Shown here: positions 874 to 8,020 of the stretch, in pieces
How positions within the stretch are numbered: position 1 is the first letter of the stretch
How the letters are laid out: the number at the start of each line of letters is the position of its first letter
Assembly: GCA_024636585.1 (NCBI GenBank)
Contig: JAGXGS010000021.1
Span: 1 to 59,721 of the forward strand
Source of the DNA: Thiogranum sp.
GTDB taxonomy: Bacteria > Pseudomonadota > Gammaproteobacteria > DSM-19610
DNA: 59,721 bases
Direction: 5' to 3'
Program-made: the position numbers and the translations under genes
Notes under the pieces: generated by a model
What the model was told of the DNA's origin: nothing
Seen by the model: only the letters and a program-made list of their open reading frames with translations
The model's database searches: none

Positions 874-2190
874 CTATAAGGTAAACGTGAATTCCTTCAC
901 CAGAGCGCCCGGCAATCGCGCACTCGCATTCGATCGCCATTCGTAACTGCTGCTATCCAGTATCTGTTCCTGCTCGTGCGTCAGACCTTCCAGGCAGTCG
1001 CCCAGAATCCGGTAGATGCTTTCATCGAAGCGCATGACATCGATCGGCGCCACCGGCCTGCCCTGCTCCACCCACAGGCACGCGAAACGGGTCATACCGG
1101 TAATGCGACAGTGATTGCGATCGGAAAAATTGCAGTACCACAGGTTGCTGATATAGAGGCCGGTGTCCAGCGCGCTGAAGATGTCGTTCTGATGCAGCTG
1201 ACCGCCGTTGATTTCCAGCGATTGGGGGGATTCGCTGGCACAGTTGACCTCGGCACCGTATTCCCTGGCGCTGCGGGCATTGGCCAGACAGCCGCGATAC
1301 TGTCCTGCTGTGATCAGTTCCACCTGGTCCGGCTTGATGAACCCTGCGCGGGTGAATCGCGGCGTGAAACCGTCGGCGTGATTCTCGCTGATGGTTACCG
1401 TGTCATGCAGCCTGCCTTCTTCGCGCACCATCTTGAGCAGCGGCGTCTGCGCGGTCCGGTGGCTCTTCAGCCCGAAGCCGCCCCAGCTGACCATGTCCAT
1501 CAGTTCATTCAGTGCGCTGGGGGTAAGGAATACGCGGTATTTTCCTGGCTTGAGTTGCCTTGGCTTCTCTCCGAGCAGCGCCAGTGTTTCGCGCGCGCAG
1601 GCGATCTTCTGCGCAAGAAATTCATCATTCCACTCGAAACCCGCATAGTTCTGTTTTACCGCCTGATCGCCCTCGCGGTAGATGCTCCAGTCGAGATTGA
1701 AGTTGTGACCACGGTGCCAGTTGAACTGGCCCAGCGAGTTCGCGAAACCGCGGCTCATTTCGCCGCCGGCCCAGGATCCGACCAGGTCGAGGCCCTGAGC
1801 TGCAGTCATGAGTTGTTCGAGTGCCTGCTCCGGCGCGGGTAACTGATCTTCGCCGTGATAGATGCTGTTGTGAACCTCGGCAGCATAGTTGAGGTGCGGA
1901 TCCTCGGGCAGCAGCGGCAGCTGCTCGCGCAACCGGCCCAGCGCATGTTGCGCCTGTGCGCTGTCTTCGTCGAGGCGTCCTGACAGTTGCAGCGTAGCCG
2001 AGGTCTCGCGGTTCCTGTGGATCAGGTCCAGCTGCAGGCTCTGCTGCCGCACGTGTCCGACCTGGCGGATCCTGTTGTGGTTGAGACGCACGAAATCGGA
2101 GTCTTCGCCCTGGTAATTGAGCAACAGGATTTCGCCTGCCGCCAGACCGGTGAAAAGCGTGCTGCTGAGTTCGCGGAAATACTGTTCCAA
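874..2190 (-). CDS. TldE/PmbA-family protein (non-catalytic partner of a TldD-like metalloprotease)
   Basis: The 438-residue product matches the general build of the TldD/PmbA (U62) family: an N-terminal domain (about 1-220) followed by a C-terminal half with [23 protein letters not shown] and a C-terminal [19 protein letters not shown]. It has no HExxxH motif, as expected for the TldE subunit, which forms a heterodimer with TldD. In known systems the dimer is an intracellular unfolded-peptide protease needed, for example, for maturation of microcin B17 and degradation of CcdA. The tldD-like gene is 42 bp upstream and an ABC transporter follows 8 bp downstream. The sequence is divergent from the housekeeping TldE, so I give no symbol. 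A specialised paralogue working on one peptide class is plausible but not shown. Confidence 0.82.
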
Positions 2191-2232
2191 GGTTACCCCT
2201 CGTTCATTGATATCATGACGAGGTAGACATGA

Positions 2233-3675
2233 CTATTCACCACCGAAGATCTCCACGTCGCGGAACACACAGGCCGGCGATGCATGACCGACATGAATCA
2301 TCTGGTTGGGTTCGCCTTTCCCGCAGTTGGGCGTGCCCCACACCTCGAAAGTGCCGGCATCGCCGACCCCAGCGAGGTTGCGCCAGAAGGTCGCACTGAT
2401 GCCGCGGTAGTTGGGATTGCGCACCAGGCCTTTCAGTTCGCCATTCTCGATCAGGCGTCCGAATTCGCAACCGAACTGGAACTTGTTGCGGCTGTCATCG
2501 ATGGACCAGGAACGGTTGGTGTCCATCAGCACGCCATACTCGATGGAGCCGATCAGTTCCTTCAGACTACTGTTGCCGGGCTCGAGATTGAGGTTGGCCA
2601 TGCGATCGATAGTCGGGCGATTCCAGTCGCAGGCGCGTGCAGTGGCTACCCCGTTCATGCCGGCGCGCGCCTGCGACTGGACACCGCCCAGCGGACGCAA
2701 CAGGACGCCATCGCGAATGACGTGGGTGCGTTCCGCCGGCGTACCGTCATCATCGAAGCCGTAACTGGCCATCTCCGGCGCCAGGCCGGGATCGAAGGTG
2801 ACATTGAGCAGATCGGAACCGTAGCGATAGCTGCCGAACATATCGGGTGTGACAAAACTGGTGCCCGCGTAATTGCGTTCATCACCGAGGATGCGATCGA
2901 GTTCCAGCGGGTGGCCGATGCTTTCGTGAATCTGCAGCATCATCTGGGTCGGCATCAGCAACACATCGGCGCTGGCGACCGGGCACTCGGGCGCATCCAC
3001 CAACGCTATCGCCTCCTCGGCTACCTGCCGGGCGCCGTCAGGAAAATTAAACCCGGCCAGCTGCTCGAGTCCACCCTGGCGCGATGAACCCCAGCCGCCG
3101 CCGCTGCGCTCCTGGGTCTGTGCGCCTTTATTGGCCACTGCCGCATAGCCCGGGATGATGTAATGAAACTGCTGATCGATATGCACGCCATCGCTGGTAA
3201 CCAGCCTGATGTCAGTGCGCCGGCGCGCCAGATGCGCCTGCCAGTCGACGATGGCCGGACTGATTCTGAGGCTGCGATTGATGTCCTGAAGCAGTTCGAG
3301 CTTGTCCCTGAGACTCCAGTTATCCCAGGAGGTGGCAACGTCTGTCGCATAATGCCCCGAAAGCTCCGGTCGCGGCACCTGCGTGGCATCGATCAGCCCG
3401 TGCCGGCGACTCGCCTCCAGCCACCGCTGCGCCTGTTCGCAGGCCGCCGCAAGTCCCTCGCGCGTCAGGGCGCTGGTGGCCGCATAACTCATGCCGCCGC
3501 GATCGATAAAGCTGATGTGCGCACCGCGACTCTGCGCCAGGTTCGGCGGTTGCACGACATCCTCGCGTACACTGAGCATTTCGGTTTCATCATGCACCAG
3601 CCGCAGCGACCAGAACTCCACGCCCGGAACTACATTCTTGAAATCATCGATAATGGATTGCCAGTCGGTCAGCAT
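2233..3675 (-). CDS. TldD-family zinc metalloprotease
   Basis: The 480-residue product carries the TldD zinc motif HESIGH (residues about 250-255) within MLQIHESIGHPLELDRILG, and a C-terminal NCGKGEPNQMIHVGH whose Cys and His fit the third zinc-ligand region of TldD. The length is the usual one for the family. It should be the catalytic half of a heterodimer with the next gene. It starts 42 bp after the lexA stop codon on the same strand, with no clear terminator between them, so read-through from the lexA promoter is possible. Together with the ABC genes this would link peptide processing, export and DNA damage, but that link is inference only. Confidence 0.86.
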   Translation of the reverse strand: MLTDWQSIIDDFKNVVPGVEFWSLRLVHDETEMLSVREDVVQPPNLAQSRGAHISFIDRGGMSYAATSALTREGLAAACEQAQRWLEASRRHGLIDATQVPRPELSGHYATDVATSWDNWSLRDKLELLQDINRSLRISPAIVDWQAHLARRRTDIRLVTSDGVHIDQQFHYIIPGYAAVANKGAQTQERSGGGWGSSRQGGLEQLAGFNFPDGARQVAEEAIALVDAPECPVASADVLLMPTQMMLQIHESIGHPLELDRILGDERNYAGTSFVTPDMFGSYRYGSDLLNVTFDPGLAPEMASYGFDDDGTPAERTHVIRDGVLLRPLGGVQSQARAGMNGVATARACDWNRPTIDRMANLNLEPGNSSLKELIGSIEYGVLMDTNRSWSIDDSRNKFQFGCEFGRLIENGELKGLVRNPNYRGISATFWRNLAGVGDAGTFEVWGTPNCGKGEPNQMIHVGHASPACVFRDVEIFGGE

Positions 3676-3717: not shown

Positions 3718-4323
3718 TCACGGATACTTGCGCAACAGACCTTTCAGGACTCCCTGTATCTGCACCTGGTCCGGCAGATAGCGCTGCGCTGTCATACTGG
3801 CGTTGGCAGGATGCAGAATCACTTGCCCCGGAGTCTGCTCGATGCGCTTCAGCGTTGCGGCTTCGCCATCGACAAGCGCCACCACAATGTCGCCGTTGTC
3901 GGCACGATCGCATTGTTCGATCACCACCCGGTCGCCATCCAGTATGCCGTCTTCGATCATGGAATCGCCGCACACCTGTAATACGTAGCAGGGTTTGCTG
4001 CCCAGCAGTTCGTCGGGAACCTGCATGTATTCCGGTTGCGGCACGGCTTCGATCGGGCGTCCGGCGGCAATCCGCCCGAGGAATGGAATGCCCGCTTCCG
4101 GTTCCACTGGTGATGCCGCCAGGCGGATACCGCGCTGACCACGCGCCATCGGTTCGACCAGGCCTGCCGAAATGAGCGCCTGAACATGTTTGTGCAGCGA
4201 ACCGCGCGAGGCCAGGCCCAGGGCCCGGCAGAGTTCGTCATGCGTCGGCGGGTGATCAAAGTCGTCCGCATGGTCGCGCAGGTACGCGTAGATTTCCTGC
4301 TGGCGTCGTGTCAGTTGTGACAT
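3718..4323 (-). CDS. lexA: LexA repressor (SOS regulator, S24 self-cleaving)
   Basis: The start is the ATG at 4323 (MSQLTRRQQEIYAYLRDHA). An open frame extends to 4482 but would run through the operator region. The 201-residue protein has an N-terminal winged HTH (residues 1-68; PTHDELCRALGLASRGSLHK), the Ala-Gly cleavage site (RIAAGRPIEA, about residue 84), the nucleophile Ser in CGDSMIEDGILDGD and the catalytic Lys in GEAATLKRIE. The recognition-helix region differs from the E. coli type (SPNAAEEHL). The gene diverges from mrfA. The shared 71 bp contain two direct-repeat sites that probably give autoregulation and control of mrfAB. A tldD-like gene follows 42 bp downstream. A LexA-like S24 repressor of a different regulon is the main alternative. 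Confidence 0.93.
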   Translation of the reverse strand: MSQLTRRQQEIYAYLRDHADDFDHPPTHDELCRALGLASRGSLHKHVQALISAGLVEPMARGQRGIRLAASPVEPEAGIPFLGRIAAGRPIEAVPQPEYMQVPDELLGSKPCYVLQVCGDSMIEDGILDGDRVVIEQCDRADNGDIVVALVDGEAATLKRIEQTPGQVILHPANASMTAQRYLPDQVQIQGVLKGLLRKYP

Positions 4324-4342
4324 GTCATTTTTCCGGTTGCCG

Positions 4343-4357
4343 GTTCTCCATTTGTTC
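4343..4357 (-). promoter_or_regulatory. SOS-box-like operator, direct repeat GTTC-N7-GTTC, lexA side
   Basis: GTTC at 4343-4346 and GTTC at 4354-4357 are separated by exactly 7 bp, and each half reads GTTCTC. This matches the alphaproteobacterial LexA box (GTTC-N7-GTTC) and not the enterobacterial CTG-N10-CAG. It lies 20 bp upstream of the lexA ATG. Confidence 0.7.
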
Positions 4358-4374
4358 TCTATTCTACACAAAGA

Positions 4375-4389
4375 GAACCAAGGGAGAAC
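4375..4389 (+). promoter_or_regulatory. SOS-box-like operator, direct repeat GAAC-N7-GAAC, mrfA side
   Basis: GAAC at 4375-4378 and GAAC at 4386-4389 are again exactly 7 bp apart, and each half reads GAGAAC. It is the mirror image of the site at 4343-4357, so the divergent region as a whole is a dyad. It ends 5 bp before the mrfA ATG, where it would also overlap the ribosome binding site. Confidence 0.7.
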
Positions 4390-4394
4390 ATAGC

Positions 4395-6782
4395 ATGAGC
4401 ACCTCGCCCGAGTACATGGCGCCCGTCGCCAGCGATCCGGCTGCGGCACTGGCGGCGCGCCTGCGCTCCGGGTATGCGGCACGCATCACCGGCGAACTGG
4501 TGGTGCCGGCACAGGCGGGACGCTATGCGGCGCTGCCGGCCGGGCTCGACCCGCGGCTTCGCAAGGCACTCGCGGCGCGCGGTGTCGAGCGGCTCTACAC
4601 CCACCAGGCAGCAGCCTGGGACTCGATTCAGGCGGGCCGTCATACAGTCGTCGTGACGCCGACCGCGTCCGGCAAGACGCTGTGCTACAACCTGCCGGTG
4701 CTGCAGGCAATCCTGCATGACCAGACCCGCGCCCTGTACCTGTTTCCAACCAAGGCGCTGGCACAGGACCAGGTGGCGGAACTGACGGCGCTGAACCAGG
4801 CCGGCGAACTCGGCGTGCGCGCATTCACGTTCGACGGCGATACACCGGGCGACGCGCGCAAGGCGGTTCGCACTCGCGGCGATATCGTGGTCAGCAATCC
4901 GGACATGCTGCACCAGGGTATTCTGCCGCACCATACCAAGTGGGCGCAGTTCTTCGAGAGCCTGCGCTATATAGTGATCGATGAAATGCACAGCTATCGC
5001 GGCGTATTCGGTTCGCACGTCGCCAACGTGTTGAGACGCCTGCAACGCATCTGCCGCTTTTACGGTTCCGACCCGCTGTTCGTCCTCTGCTCGGCAACCA
5101 TCGCCAATCCGGCGGAACTCGCCAGCCAGTTGATCGGTGCAGAGGTGCATGCAATCACCGACAGCGGCGCGCCGCACGGCGCCAAGCACCTGTTGCTGTG
5201 GAATCCGCCGGTGATCAATCCGGATCTGGGCATTCGCGCCTCGGCACGTTCGCAGACCACGCGGATTGCGAAAATGGCAGTAAAAGGCGGACTCAAAAGC
5301 ATCGTGTTTGCCCAGTCCCGGCTGATGGTCGAGGTGCTGACCAAGTACATGAAGGATACCTTCGACAAGGACCCGCGCCACCCGGCCCGGGTAGCGGCCT
5401 ATCGCGGCGGTTACCTGCCGACCGAGCGTCGCGCCATGGAAAAGAAACTGCGCGCGGGTTCGATCGATTGCGTGGTATCCACGTCGGCGCTGGAACTGGG
5501 CGTCGATATCGGTGCCCTGGACGTGTGTGTACTGAACGGCTATCCCGGCACTATCGCCGGCACCTGGCAACGTCTCGGACGGGCCGGACGCCGGCAGCGT
5601 ACGGCGCTCGGGGTGCTGGTGGCGAGCAGTCTGCCGCTCGACCAGTACATTATTCGCAACCCCGAATTTTTTCTCGGTGCGTCACCCGAGCAGGCGCGCA
5701 TCGATCCCGACCAGTTGCTGATACTGCTCGACCACATCCGTTGTGCGGCGTTCGAATTGCCGTTCCGGGACGCTGACCGGTTCGGCAAGGAAGACCTTGC
5801 CGAAATGCTGAAGTACCTGCAGGAACAGAACGTCGTGCATCATGAAGGCGGCCAGTGGCACTGGATGGAAGACAGCTATCCGGCCAACAGCGTCAGTCTG
5901 CGCTCGGTGGCGGAAGGCAATTTCGTGGTCATCGACACCACCGGCGGCGCACAGACGGTGATCGCAGAGGTCGATTACAGCTCCGCGCCGGAGACCCTCT
6001 ACCGGGGCGCCATCTACATGGTGCAATCGGCGCCTTACCAGGTGGAGAAACTCGACTGGGAAGGCCGCAAGGCATTCGTCACACGCACCCGCGCCGACTA
6101 TTACACCGATGCCATCGATTACACGCGCCTGAAAATCCTGGAACAGGAGAAACGTTCTCTCAATGTTTCGCAGGGCGAGGTGCACCTGGTGCGGCGCATT
6201 GCCGGATACAAGAAAATCCGTTATTACACCCACGAAAACATCGGCTACGGCAACATCGATCTGCCTGACCAGGAAATGCATACCACTGCTGTGTGGTGGC
6301 AGGTCGATCCCGACGCGCTGTTCGGCGAAAGCGGTGCGTTCAGATCGCGCCAACAGGCACTCGATGGATTTCTGGGTGCCGGTTATGCGCTGCACATCGT
6401 AGCGGCCATGCGCATGCTCTCGGAACCGCGCGACCTTGGGCGCGCGGTCGGCGACGGTAATGCTGACTGGTTTGCGACCGTCGGCCCTGACGGGCGCGGC
6501 GCGCTGTTAAACAAGGACGGCGAAGCGATTGACCTGACCAGCGTGCAGCGCTTTACGCCGACCCTGTTTCTCTACGACAACTATCCCGGCGGCATCGGAA
6601 TTTCAACACCGCTGTTCCAGAGCCGTGCCGCCGTGGTCAGTGGCGCGCAGACACTGGTGCAGGCCTGCGAGTGCGCTCAGGGGTGTCCGGGTTGCATCGG
6701 GCCGATCCTGGCAAGTGACGAAGTGCGCGGCTATTCCCCGAAAGCTGTAGCACTGCGCGTGCTCGACTTGCTGGTGGAATAA
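4395..6782 (+). CDS. mrfA: DExH helicase with C-terminal zinc/DUF1998 domain, MrfA (YprA) type
   Basis: The ATG at 4395 follows AGGGAGAACATAGC and removes an N-terminal extension that would cross the operators. The product has 795 residues: a Walker A-like TPTASGKT (about 88-95), DEMH (197-200), a second RecA domain with VVSTSALELGVDIGALD and GRAGRRQ, then a C-terminal DUF1998 region with four Cys (CECAQGCPGC, residues 758-767). This set is typical of MrfA of Bacillus subtilis, an ATP-dependent DNA helicase/translocase that acts with the exonuclease MrfB in UvrABC-independent repair of mitomycin C damage. The mrfB-like gene starts 5 bp later. The SOS-type operator at the start codon predicts damage induction. 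Assignment is by motifs and gene pairing. Confidence 0.88.
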   Translation: MSTSPEYMAPVASDPAAALAARLRSGYAARITGELVVPAQAGRYAALPAGLDPRLRKALAARGVERLYTHQAAAWDSIQAGRHTVVVTPTASGKTLCYNLPVLQAILHDQTRALYLFPTKALAQDQVAELTALNQAGELGVRAFTFDGDTPGDARKAVRTRGDIVVSNPDMLHQGILPHHTKWAQFFESLRYIVIDEMHSYRGVFGSHVANVLRRLQRICRFYGSDPLFVLCSATIANPAELASQLIGAEVHAITDSGAPHGAKHLLLWNPPVINPDLGIRASARSQTTRIAKMAVKGGLKSIVFAQSRLMVEVLTKYMKDTFDKDPRHPARVAAYRGGYLPTERRAMEKKLRAGSIDCVVSTSALELGVDIGALDVCVLNGYPGTIAGTWQRLGRAGRRQRTALGVLVASSLPLDQYIIRNPEFFLGASPEQARIDPDQLLILLDHIRCAAFELPFRDADRFGKEDLAEMLKYLQEQNVVHHEGGQWHWMEDSYPANSVSLRSVAEGNFVVIDTTGGAQTVIAEVDYSSAPETLYRGAIYMVQSAPYQVEKLDWEGRKAFVTRTRADYYTDAIDYTRLKILEQEKRSLNVSQGEVHLVRRIAGYKKIRYYTHENIGYGNIDLPDQEMHTTAVWWQVDPDALFGESGAFRSRQQALDGFLGAGYALHIVAAMRMLSEPRDLGRAVGDGNADWFATVGPDGRGALLNKDGEAIDLTSVQRFTPTLFLYDNYPGGIGISTPLFQSRAAVVSGAQTLVQACECAQGCPGCIGPILASDEVRGYSPKAVALRVLDLLVE

Positions 6783-6787
6783 GCGCC

Positions 6788-8020
6788 ATGGACCTTCAAT
6801 CCAGGTTATCCCGGTTGCAGTCCCAGGTCGGAGCCGAAAACCGCGACACGGAACCGAAATCGCAACTGTCGGAACTGCGCGCGCGCATCGCCGAACTCGA
6901 AAAACGCGGACGTGCGCGCAAGCAAAGACATCCCACCACCGCGCCGGCTCTGGTCGCCGGGGCGGAACCGGGAGCCGGGTCTGAACACTGCGGCTTCGGC
7001 GGCGAACAGATCGCTCCGGGCCTAACCCGTATCTGTACACGCTATCCGCTCACCGGCACCCTCGGTTCAATTGAACTGCACAGTCTGCGCGAACCGCCAC
7101 AGCTACCGGGCGAGCCCGGTCTCGCGCACCTGCGTCGCGTCTATCTCGATACCGAAACCACCGGCCTGTCGGGCGGCAGCGGCACCCTCGCCTTTCTGAT
7201 CGGCATTGCGGTGGTGACAGAGACAGCAATCGAACTCACACAATTTCTCATTACGCGTTTCGCCGGCGAAACGGCGATGTTATCGGCGCTCGCCGACAGC
7301 CTCGGTCCGAACGACCAGCTGGTCAGCTACAACGGCAAGAGCTACGACCTGCCGCTGCTGGTTACGCGCTTTCGCATGCAGGCCCGGCGACATCCTTTCG
7401 CGGGGCTTGCGCATCTCGACCTGTTGCACCCGACCCGGCGCCTGTTCAGTAAACGCTGGCCGGACTGCCGGCTGATCACGCTCGAACAGAACCTGCTCGG
7501 ATTTCACCGTATCGATGATCTGCCCGGCAGCGAAGCGCCGGCGGCCTGGTTCAGCTATATCCGCAACGGCGATGACCGGCAACTCAAACGCGTCATCGAA
7601 CATAACGCCCAGGACATCCTGTCACTGGCGGTCGCACATCAGGTGCTGGCGCAGGCAGTCGCGCAGCCGGACGCGTTCGGAGTGGATCTGTATGCGCTCG
7701 GACGCTGGCTTGTTGAACAGGATGAAACCGGGGCGCGTGAACTGCTGCAGTCATATCGGGAGCGGCTGTGCGACGACGCGACGCGATTGCTCGCCCGGCT
7801 GTACAAACGCAGCGGCAACTGGTCGCAGGCTACCGCTCTGTGGGAGCATCTCGCCGCCGCCGGCTGTGTCGAATCAGTCGAATGTCTTGCCAAATATCAT
7901 GAACATATCAGCAAGGATTTTTCGGCAGCACGACGCTGTTGCGAACGCCTGTCGAACAATGCCGCGCATGAACACCGGCGCCGACGCATTGAGGGCAAGA
8001 TTGCAGCGCTGCGCTCATAG
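6788..8020 (+). CDS. mrfB: DEDD-type exonuclease with TPR-like tail, MrfB (YprB) type
   Basis: The 410-residue product has an N-terminal helical, charged stretch (1-60), then an RNase H-like exonuclease fold: VYLDTETTGLSGG (first D and E), VSYNGKSYDLPLL (second D) and HNAQDILSLAVAH (His and last D, DEDDh). A C-terminal helical repeat region (about 300-400; RLYKRSGNWSQATALWEHL) looks like TPRs, as described for B. subtilis MrfB. It is 5 bp downstream of mrfA and clearly in the same operon. The expected role is metal-dependent 3'-5' DNA degradation at lesions opened by MrfA. Confidence 0.85.
   Translation: MDLQSRLSRLQSQVGAENRDTEPKSQLSELRARIAELEKRGRARKQRHPTTAPALVAGAEPGAGSEHCGFGGEQIAPGLTRICTRYPLTGTLGSIELHSLREPPQLPGEPGLAHLRRVYLDTETTGLSGGSGTLAFLIGIAVVTETAIELTQFLITRFAGETAMLSALADSLGPNDQLVSYNGKSYDLPLLVTRFRMQARRHPFAGLAHLDLLHPTRRLFSKRWPDCRLITLEQNLLGFHRIDDLPGSEAPAAWFSYIRNGDDRQLKRVIEHNAQDILSLAVAHQVLAQAVAQPDAFGVDLYALGRWLVEQDETGARELLQSYRERLCDDATRLLARLYKRSGNWSQATALWEHLAAAGCVESVECLAKYHEHISKDFSAARRCCERLSNNAAHEHRRRRIEGKIAALRS

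Follow-up and report, generated by a model that had tools for sequence, protein, structure and literature searches.

A second LexA repressor in Thiogranum with GTTC-type operator boxes, predicted to control its own gene and mrfAB

The window analysed here is a stretch of 59,721 bp from Thiogranum sp., a member of the Gammaproteobacteria (contig JAGXGS010000021.1, positions 1 to 59,721). Within it, a lexA gene, designated lexA2, and a gene for a YprA/MrfA-type helicase face away from each other across a short gap, in which two operator-like boxes and the elements of two putative promoters are packed. The features of the locus are as follows.

3718-4323, minus strand: lexA2, second LexA repressor of 201 aa, with winged helix-turn-helix (wHTH) and S24 autoprotease, recognition helix S-R-G-S-L-H-K (TIGR00498, PF01726, PF00717)
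4324-4394: gap of 71 bp between lexA2 (minus strand) and mrfA (plus strand)
4337-4342, plus strand: proposed −35 of mrfA, TTGCCG, from the sequence and conserved geometry
4343-4359, plus strand: operator box B, GTTCTCCATTTGTTCTC, predicted, in the 17-bp spacer between the proposed −35 and −10 of mrfA
4360-4365, plus strand: putative −10 of mrfA, TATTCT, directly after box B and overlapping the proposed −10 of lexA2
4361-4366, minus strand: putative −10 of lexA2, TAGAAT
4373-4389, minus strand: operator box A, GTTCTCCCTTGGTTCTC, over the stretch in which mrfA should have its start region and ribosome-binding site, with a presumed role there
4395-6782, plus strand: mrfA, YprA/MrfA-type SF2 helicase of 795 aa with Zn-binding MZB domain (PF00270, PF00271, PF09369, PF22982)
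6788-8020, plus strand: mrfB, DEDDh exonuclease-like, 410 aa, the next gene on the same strand (PF13482 RNase_H_2, 127 bits)

The product of lexA2 scored 169 bits against TIGR00498 (cut-off 111) and contains both LexA domains, PF01726 and PF00717. Its Ala87-Gly88, Ser121 and Lys159 align with the cleavage site and the Ser/Lys dyad of E. coli LexA, and with respect to LexA domains, cleavage site and dyad the protein is thus like the canonical one. Next to the 3′ end of lexA2 and in the same orientation, two tldD/pmbA-like genes were recognized by eye (874-3675, minus strand). The helicase carries DEAD, helicase-C, HRQ1-type winged-helix and MrfA Zn-binding (MZB, DUF1998) domains together with Walker A and DEMH motifs, and the downstream protein shows the motifs D-T-E, D and H-N-A-Q-D of DEDDh-like type. 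The location of an RNase_H_2 exonuclease gene next to the helicase gene indicates that the pair is mrfAB. The same combination, a helicase with MZB domain and a DEDDh exonuclease, is described in passages of PMC11194089 and PMC12458937 for MrfAB/YprAB of Bacillus subtilis, which repair mitomycin C damage.

Boxes A and B, 17 bp each, are arranged in mirror orientation with 13 bp between them, and the half-sites inside each box start 11 bp apart. The preliminary description of this gap had noted GTTC-N7-GTTC at 4343-4357 (plus strand) and its mirror at 4375-4389 (minus strand), with six-base halves, an 11-bp periodicity and nothing like CTG-N10-CAG. Both motifs were present as described, the boxes with their full halves occupy 4343-4359 and 4373-4389, and CTG-N10-CAG was absent from both strands of the 71-bp gap. 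The assignment of the boxes to the alphaproteobacterial LexA kind also held, the motif being the GTTC-N7-GTTC given for Caulobacter and alphaproteobacterial LexA in the relevant passages of PMC12700426 and PMC3323433, and the boxes appear to be so positioned that lexA and mrfA could be controlled jointly, as had been proposed.

The looser motif GTTC-N7-GTTC occurred 4 times in the window against 1.5 expected and is hence not rare; for this reason, the evidence for the boxes derives from their extended half-sites and their conservation. Exact GTTCTC-N5-GTTCTC gave two matches in the entire own genome (2,612,725 bases, 93 contigs, 82.9% complete), both within the lexA2-mrfA gap. When one mismatch was allowed, six matches were obtained and the reversed control gave two; the four additional matches all lie within long open frames that resemble real genes by eye. 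Across 17 loci, the gap between the mirror boxes ranged from 12 to 22 bp, being 13 or 14 bp in 13 of the 17, while the spacing inside the box was fixed by the search pattern used. This variable gap suggests that each 17-bp direct repeat is the likely unit of binding. A single LexA dimer spanning both mirror boxes was judged unlikely, given the variation of the gap and the existence of single boxes.

The mrfA promoter of the window reads TTGCCG - box B - TATTCT. A generic promoter scan of 4250-4450 detected no consensus promoter above threshold, and the promoters are therefore proposed solely from conserved geometry. For lexA2, no convincing −35 was seen; the hexamer located 17 bp upstream of the proposed −10 is GTTCTC, inside box A. 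The geometry was examined for 56 distinct sites (at most one mismatch), which came from 53 regions: 37 located upstream of lexA and 16 of mrfA. At 18 of the 56 sites, TAnnnT immediately adjoins the end of the 17-bp box; at 16 of these 18, a TTG also precedes the box by six or seven bases, and TTG without TAnnnT was found at one further site. Among 15 distinct mrfA-facing boxes, sorted by hand, TAnnnT directly follows the box in 14 (the exception is L046), and 12 of these 14, not L043 or G119, also have TTG before the box. The same geometry was observed beyond the mrfA-facing boxes, at the lexA promoters of G011, G047 and G053 and at the upstream-facing box of G004. In G253, G139 and G071, only the mirror box is present at mrfA, with no mrfA-facing box within one mismatch, indicating that the spacer geometry is not universal.

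The recognition helix reads SRGSLHKHV in lexA2 versus SPNAAEEHL in the canonical LexA of its own genome. Positions 44 and 45 of E. coli LexA contact bases, and the residues aligned to these positions were surveyed in 103 LexA rows. H-K or H-R was found in 42 of the 45 rows with a GTTC-type box upstream, whereas none of the 20 rows with a CTGT-type box had either pair and 17 of the 20 had E-E or E-D. For the other 38 rows, neither box was present at the threshold used or too little upstream sequence was available; 21 of these are H-K or H-R. Residue pair and box type go together in 59 of 65 rows; since the rows are related, the counts of 42/45 and 17/20 are to be taken as a pattern and not as 65 independent tests. 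The contrast between H-K/R and E-E/D at two recognition positions offers a direct way into the study of LexA specificity.

A tree was built from 76 LexA rows, in which relatives were sampled by similarity to the window LexA and other phyla are therefore thin. It placed lexA2 in a 25-row gammaproteobacterial clade (100/99), apart from 16 canonical gammaproteobacterial rows (98/98) and seven alphaproteobacterial rows (100/100). Within 150 bp upstream, GTTCT-N6-GTTCT with at most one mismatch was detected in 22 of 24 scored rows of this clade, 19 of them exact; L014 and L055 are without the box, and L049 was left unscored because of a contig edge. Twelve further gammaproteobacterial rows grouped with the clade (87/95), of which five have the exact box and seven differ by at least two mismatches, a related word being present in some of the seven, for example L022. 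GTTCT-N6-GTTCT was present in 0 of the 16 canonical rows, 14 of which carry CTGT-N8-ACAG with at most one mismatch. By eye, variant direct repeats were seen upstream of L022 (GATCTC-N5-GATCTC) and at 3841-4003 of L193, a Methylophaga plasmid (ATTCTC-N5-ATTCTC); motif drift within the lineage is a possible reading of both. A site scan was also made in 56 relatives: 15 of 20 extra sites inspected lie in an open frame by a simple picker, which also puts some true operators in spurious long frames (for instance, the mrfA operator of G102) and whose labels were not used in high-GC genomes. Among these 20, the only extra site common to more than one genome was that of G018 and G019.

It is quite improbable that lexA2 and its box were acquired recently from an alphaproteobacterium, despite several common traits. 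As in alphaproteobacterial LexA, GTTC-N7-GTTC is located at the repressor's own gene, of the type given for Caulobacter in the passages of PMC12700426, and H-R/K is found in the recognition helix of the alphaproteobacterial rows sampled. The cleavage domains also group: in a tree from which the DNA-binding part was excluded, leaving few columns and many open forks, a group of 59 (97/92) united the seven alphaproteobacterial rows with 52 from the broader lineage of the window LexA, apart from canonical gammaproteobacterial LexA. In AU tests of the full-length set, p was 0.41 for alphaproteobacterial plus 37 gammaproteobacterial rows, 0.22 for alphaproteobacterial rows plus the 25-row clade, a grouping that is thus not rejected, and 0.066 for canonical rows plus the 25-row clade. 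However, the alphaproteobacterial rows form a clade of their own also in the cleavage-domain tree (100/99), and lexA2 lies outside this sampled clade. The nearest relatives of lexA2 are gammaproteobacterial, with up to 78% identity, against at most 42% for the alphaproteobacterial rows. An old common stem fits these data better, and the simplest reading of the trees is that the lexA2 lineage is old and shared with alphaproteobacterial LexA, with no recent import.

mrfA was found in 17 of 369 genomes drawn from the class. Fifteen genomes were compared, leaving out the window genome and G055, in which the 5′ end of mrfA is missing at a contig end. A GTTC-type LexA was found in 12 of the 15, in 10 as the divergent neighbour of mrfA and in two, G102 and G152, elsewhere. 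The exact box was located upstream of mrfA in 11 of these 12 genomes, and that of G152 has two mismatches; for G183, G291 and G383, which have mrfA and no GTTC-type LexA, no box within two mismatches was found upstream of mrfA. The association between box and LexA at mrfA gave Fisher values of 0.009 by strict scoring and 0.002 with G152 counted, for related genomes and cases that are not independent. As the two genes are neighbours in 10 of the 12 genomes, most of this association represents one shared gap, and the cases separating the mrfA box from the lexA2 box are only G001, G102 and, weakly, G152. In G102, lexA2 is not beside mrfA, yet both boxes are upstream of mrfA. In G001, a member of the own genus, mrfAB is located beside another gene and a lexA2 fragment on another contig, and again both boxes are upstream of mrfA. 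These two genomes indicate that the boxes follow mrfA and not just the repressor's own promoter. Among 17 genomes of the genus, both genes were found in five, lexA2 only in none, mrfA only in one and neither in 11 (p 0.001, with the genomes related). In G004, lexA2 and mrfAB are apart, the 5′ end of mrfA is missing and the one box is at lexA2; in G006, a genome 79% complete, pieces of mrfA are present and lexA2 was not detected.

If the boxes served only autoregulation of lexA2, mrfA would be a bystander or otherwise controlled. Such an arrangement would agree with G045, G053 and G047, in which the search pattern detected a single box and mrfA is absent, with the varied neighbours of lexA, which may be UmuD-like, Y-family polymerase, imuA-imuB-dnaE2-like or no clear repair gene, and with the mirror box standing alone at mrfA in G253, G139 and G071. 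It is nevertheless very unlikely: both boxes are retained at mrfA in G001 and G102, where lexA2 is elsewhere, 14 of 15 mrfA-facing boxes occupy the mrfA spacer, and no box within two mismatches precedes mrfA in the three genomes without lexA2.

A second lexA is present in the own genome at G000:C82 (L151, L008). It is 41% identical to lexA2; the box CTGTATATAATTACAG stands immediately upstream of it, and the gene that follows it closely is imuA-like by eye. Both canonical features, the CTGT-N8-ACAG box and the E-E/D recognition residues, were found for L008 and neither for lexA2. The order of CTGT box, canonical lexA and imuA-like gene suggests that the canonical repressor probably also controls the mutagenesis cassette. 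For recA, no match above cut-off was obtained in the own assembly (82.9% complete), and relatives of the genus were used instead. recA was found in seven of eight same-genus genomes searched, with CTGT-N8-ACAG (CTGTTTATTTYTACAG) upstream in 7/7; GTTC-N7-GTTC was absent upstream of recA in all seven. In two same-family genomes recA carries CTGTATATTTACCCAG, and in five genomes of other families it has neither box type. Sixteen further genomes were searched and 15 gave recA, with a GTTC-type box in two (G253 exact, G139 one mismatch), an exact CTGT box in one (G071), a one-mismatch CTGT word in one (G383) and neither in 11. Neither box type was detected at recA in 8 of the 12 genomes having both mrfA and GTTC-type LexA.

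The preliminary description had proposed a LexA of other specificity in this lineage, either kept or acquired, which in its strong form would mean a lineage-wide switch of the SOS code, and had named beforehand the motif upstream of recA as the point to be checked. The proposal as such agrees with the non-canonical recognition helix and GTTC boxes of lexA2; the strong form was not borne out, as the motif is absent upstream of recA in the genus, where recA is canonical (7/7), and the own genome keeps a canonical LexA with CTGT box, the presence of two LexAs having been overlooked. No exchange of the SOS code has taken place in the genus, and the earlier inference was half right. As judged from the upstream sequences, lexA2 is not in control of recA or the global SOS regulon in the window's genus. 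Use of the alphaproteobacterial code by the entire SOS system of the lineage looks true of G139 and G253, which have GTTC-type LexAs only and recA with a GTTC-type box, but is extremely unlikely here, in view of the canonical LexA and recA boxes and of the own genome holding no further exact or one-mismatch GTTCTC site outside long open frames.

lexA2 encodes an additional LexA, with a recognition helix of H-K type, which most likely represses itself and mrfAB, and the locus is very probably a self-contained damage-response switch, in which lexA2 with its own box governs lexA2 and mrfAB. LexA2 would read GTTCTC-N5-GTTCTC in place of CTGT-N8-ACAG. Box B lies in the 17-bp spacer of mrfA, and box A covers both the putative promoter of lexA2 and the region in which mrfA starts; occupied boxes would shut both divergent promoters, of which the proposed −10 elements overlap. 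DNA damage would then lead to RecA filaments and self-cleavage of LexA2, by which mrfAB and lexA2 would be freed together, and the induced MrfAB may participate in repair. The release of LexA2 would run parallel to, but separate from, the canonical LexA regulon.

This apparent regulon, consisting of only lexA2 and mrfAB, is unlike that of alphaproteobacterial LexA, from which lexA2 also differs in its position outside the sampled alphaproteobacterial clade, its predicted lack of recA control in the genus and its coexistence with a canonical LexA. From canonical gammaproteobacterial LexA it differs by other recognition residues, another box and a separate clade. Two LexAs per cell, the second with a diverged motif, are present in Pseudomonas putida and Xanthomonas, and reportedly also in Leptospira. 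The LexA motifs of P. putida and Xanthomonas are palindromic, and the second LexA of P. putida targets the imuA-imuB-dnaE2 cassette. In contrast to these systems, lexA2 is associated with a direct-repeat motif, and with mrfAB in place of the imuA-imuB-dnaE2 cassette of P. putida. The locus is likely a dedicated LexA switch for mrfAB, a repair pair described in PMC11194089 and PMC12458937 with 0 occurrences of the terms LexA and SOS in their main text; unlike the B. subtilis account in these papers, mrfAB here has LexA-type boxes and an adjacent LexA. A search of open-licence literature gave, among the matches listed, no account of LexA controlling mrfAB and no description of GTTC-N7-GTTC boxes in Gammaproteobacteria.

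A model of LexA replacement is outlined in passages of PMC8565304: lexA is duplicated, the motif diverges, the primary LexA is lost and the regulon is taken up again. The example given there, a repressor of Bacteroidetes whose DNA-binding domain is of another kind, is unlike lexA2, and these passages do not deal with the lineage of the window; as to the model, the window genus and G139/G253 resemble its successive stages. G139 and G253 belong to one genus, are both 99% complete and have two GTTC-type LexAs each; no canonical LexA was found in either at E 1e-10. The recA boxes are GTTTTGGGTTTGTTCT in G139 and GTTCTCGGAAAGTTCT in G253. The GTTC-type box at recA and the lack of a canonical LexA match suggest that takeover of recA has apparently happened elsewhere in the class. 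GTTCT-N6-GTTCT sites versus the reversed control numbered 12 versus 1 in G139 and 11 versus 3 in G253, several of them being repeated copies before a transposase-like gene. Sites were also above control in G102 (9 versus 0) and, less clearly, in G281 (7 versus 2). The counts for G366 (6 versus 9), G074 (4 versus 3), G080 (2 versus 0) and G152 (2 versus 1) are not clearly above control, which fits small regulons. From the window genus to G139/G253, a natural series of SOS rewiring is possible.

The GTTC-type lexA genes are associated with other cassettes as well. At six Chromatiaceae-type loci (L045, L050-L054), the gene is divergent to a UmuD-like S24 gene, and on a Methylobacter plasmid (L192) lexA with its box is divergent to annotated umuD and a Y-family polymerase. 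More distant members precede, by eye from translations, a Y-family-polymerase-like gene (G011, G053) or imuA-imuB-dnaE2-like genes (G047). On balance, we lean toward the view that gammaproteobacterial GTTC-type LexAs represent an old accessory lineage of SOS repressors, sister to alphaproteobacterial LexA and carried on chromosomes and at least one plasmid, which may attach to single damage-tolerance cassettes (mrfAB, umuDC, Y-family polymerase, imuA-imuB-dnaE2), add others such as integrases, and take over recA where canonical LexA was lost. If this is true, living lineages hold consecutive stages of SOS rewiring, and these related bacteria would form a set for stage-by-stage study of the takeover postulated in the passages of PMC8565304, from tiny regulon to SOS capture.

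Several minor observations were made on the contigs of the relatives. A gene judged transposase-like by eye occurs in copies in G253 and G139 (L272, L286 and L287), each of them preceded by a GTTCTCAATATGTTCT-type box, as if the mobile element were under damage control. In G102 (L263, L222), which is 99% complete, the only LexA found is of GTTC type, and recA has neither box in the stretch examined. Small open frames of 56-87 aa are located behind a GTTC-type box at L152 2601 (plus strand), L153 2690 (minus strand), L265 2805 (minus strand) and L295 2977 (plus strand). They come from G018, G019, G102 and G152, which belong to three families, and begin with a common word like MRDQVRNRV..IMA, the similarity between families being weak (E 0.03-0.08); no frame of this type was matched in the window or the other loci compared. 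A damage-induced small protein is a candidate interpretation of these frames. Finally, two tyrosine recombinases with Phage_integrase and SAM_4 domains, L263 1966-2637 (G102) and L292 596-2025 (G366), have a GTTC-type box at their start; by eye they are integron-integrase-like, and that of G102 is located on the same contig end as lexA2.
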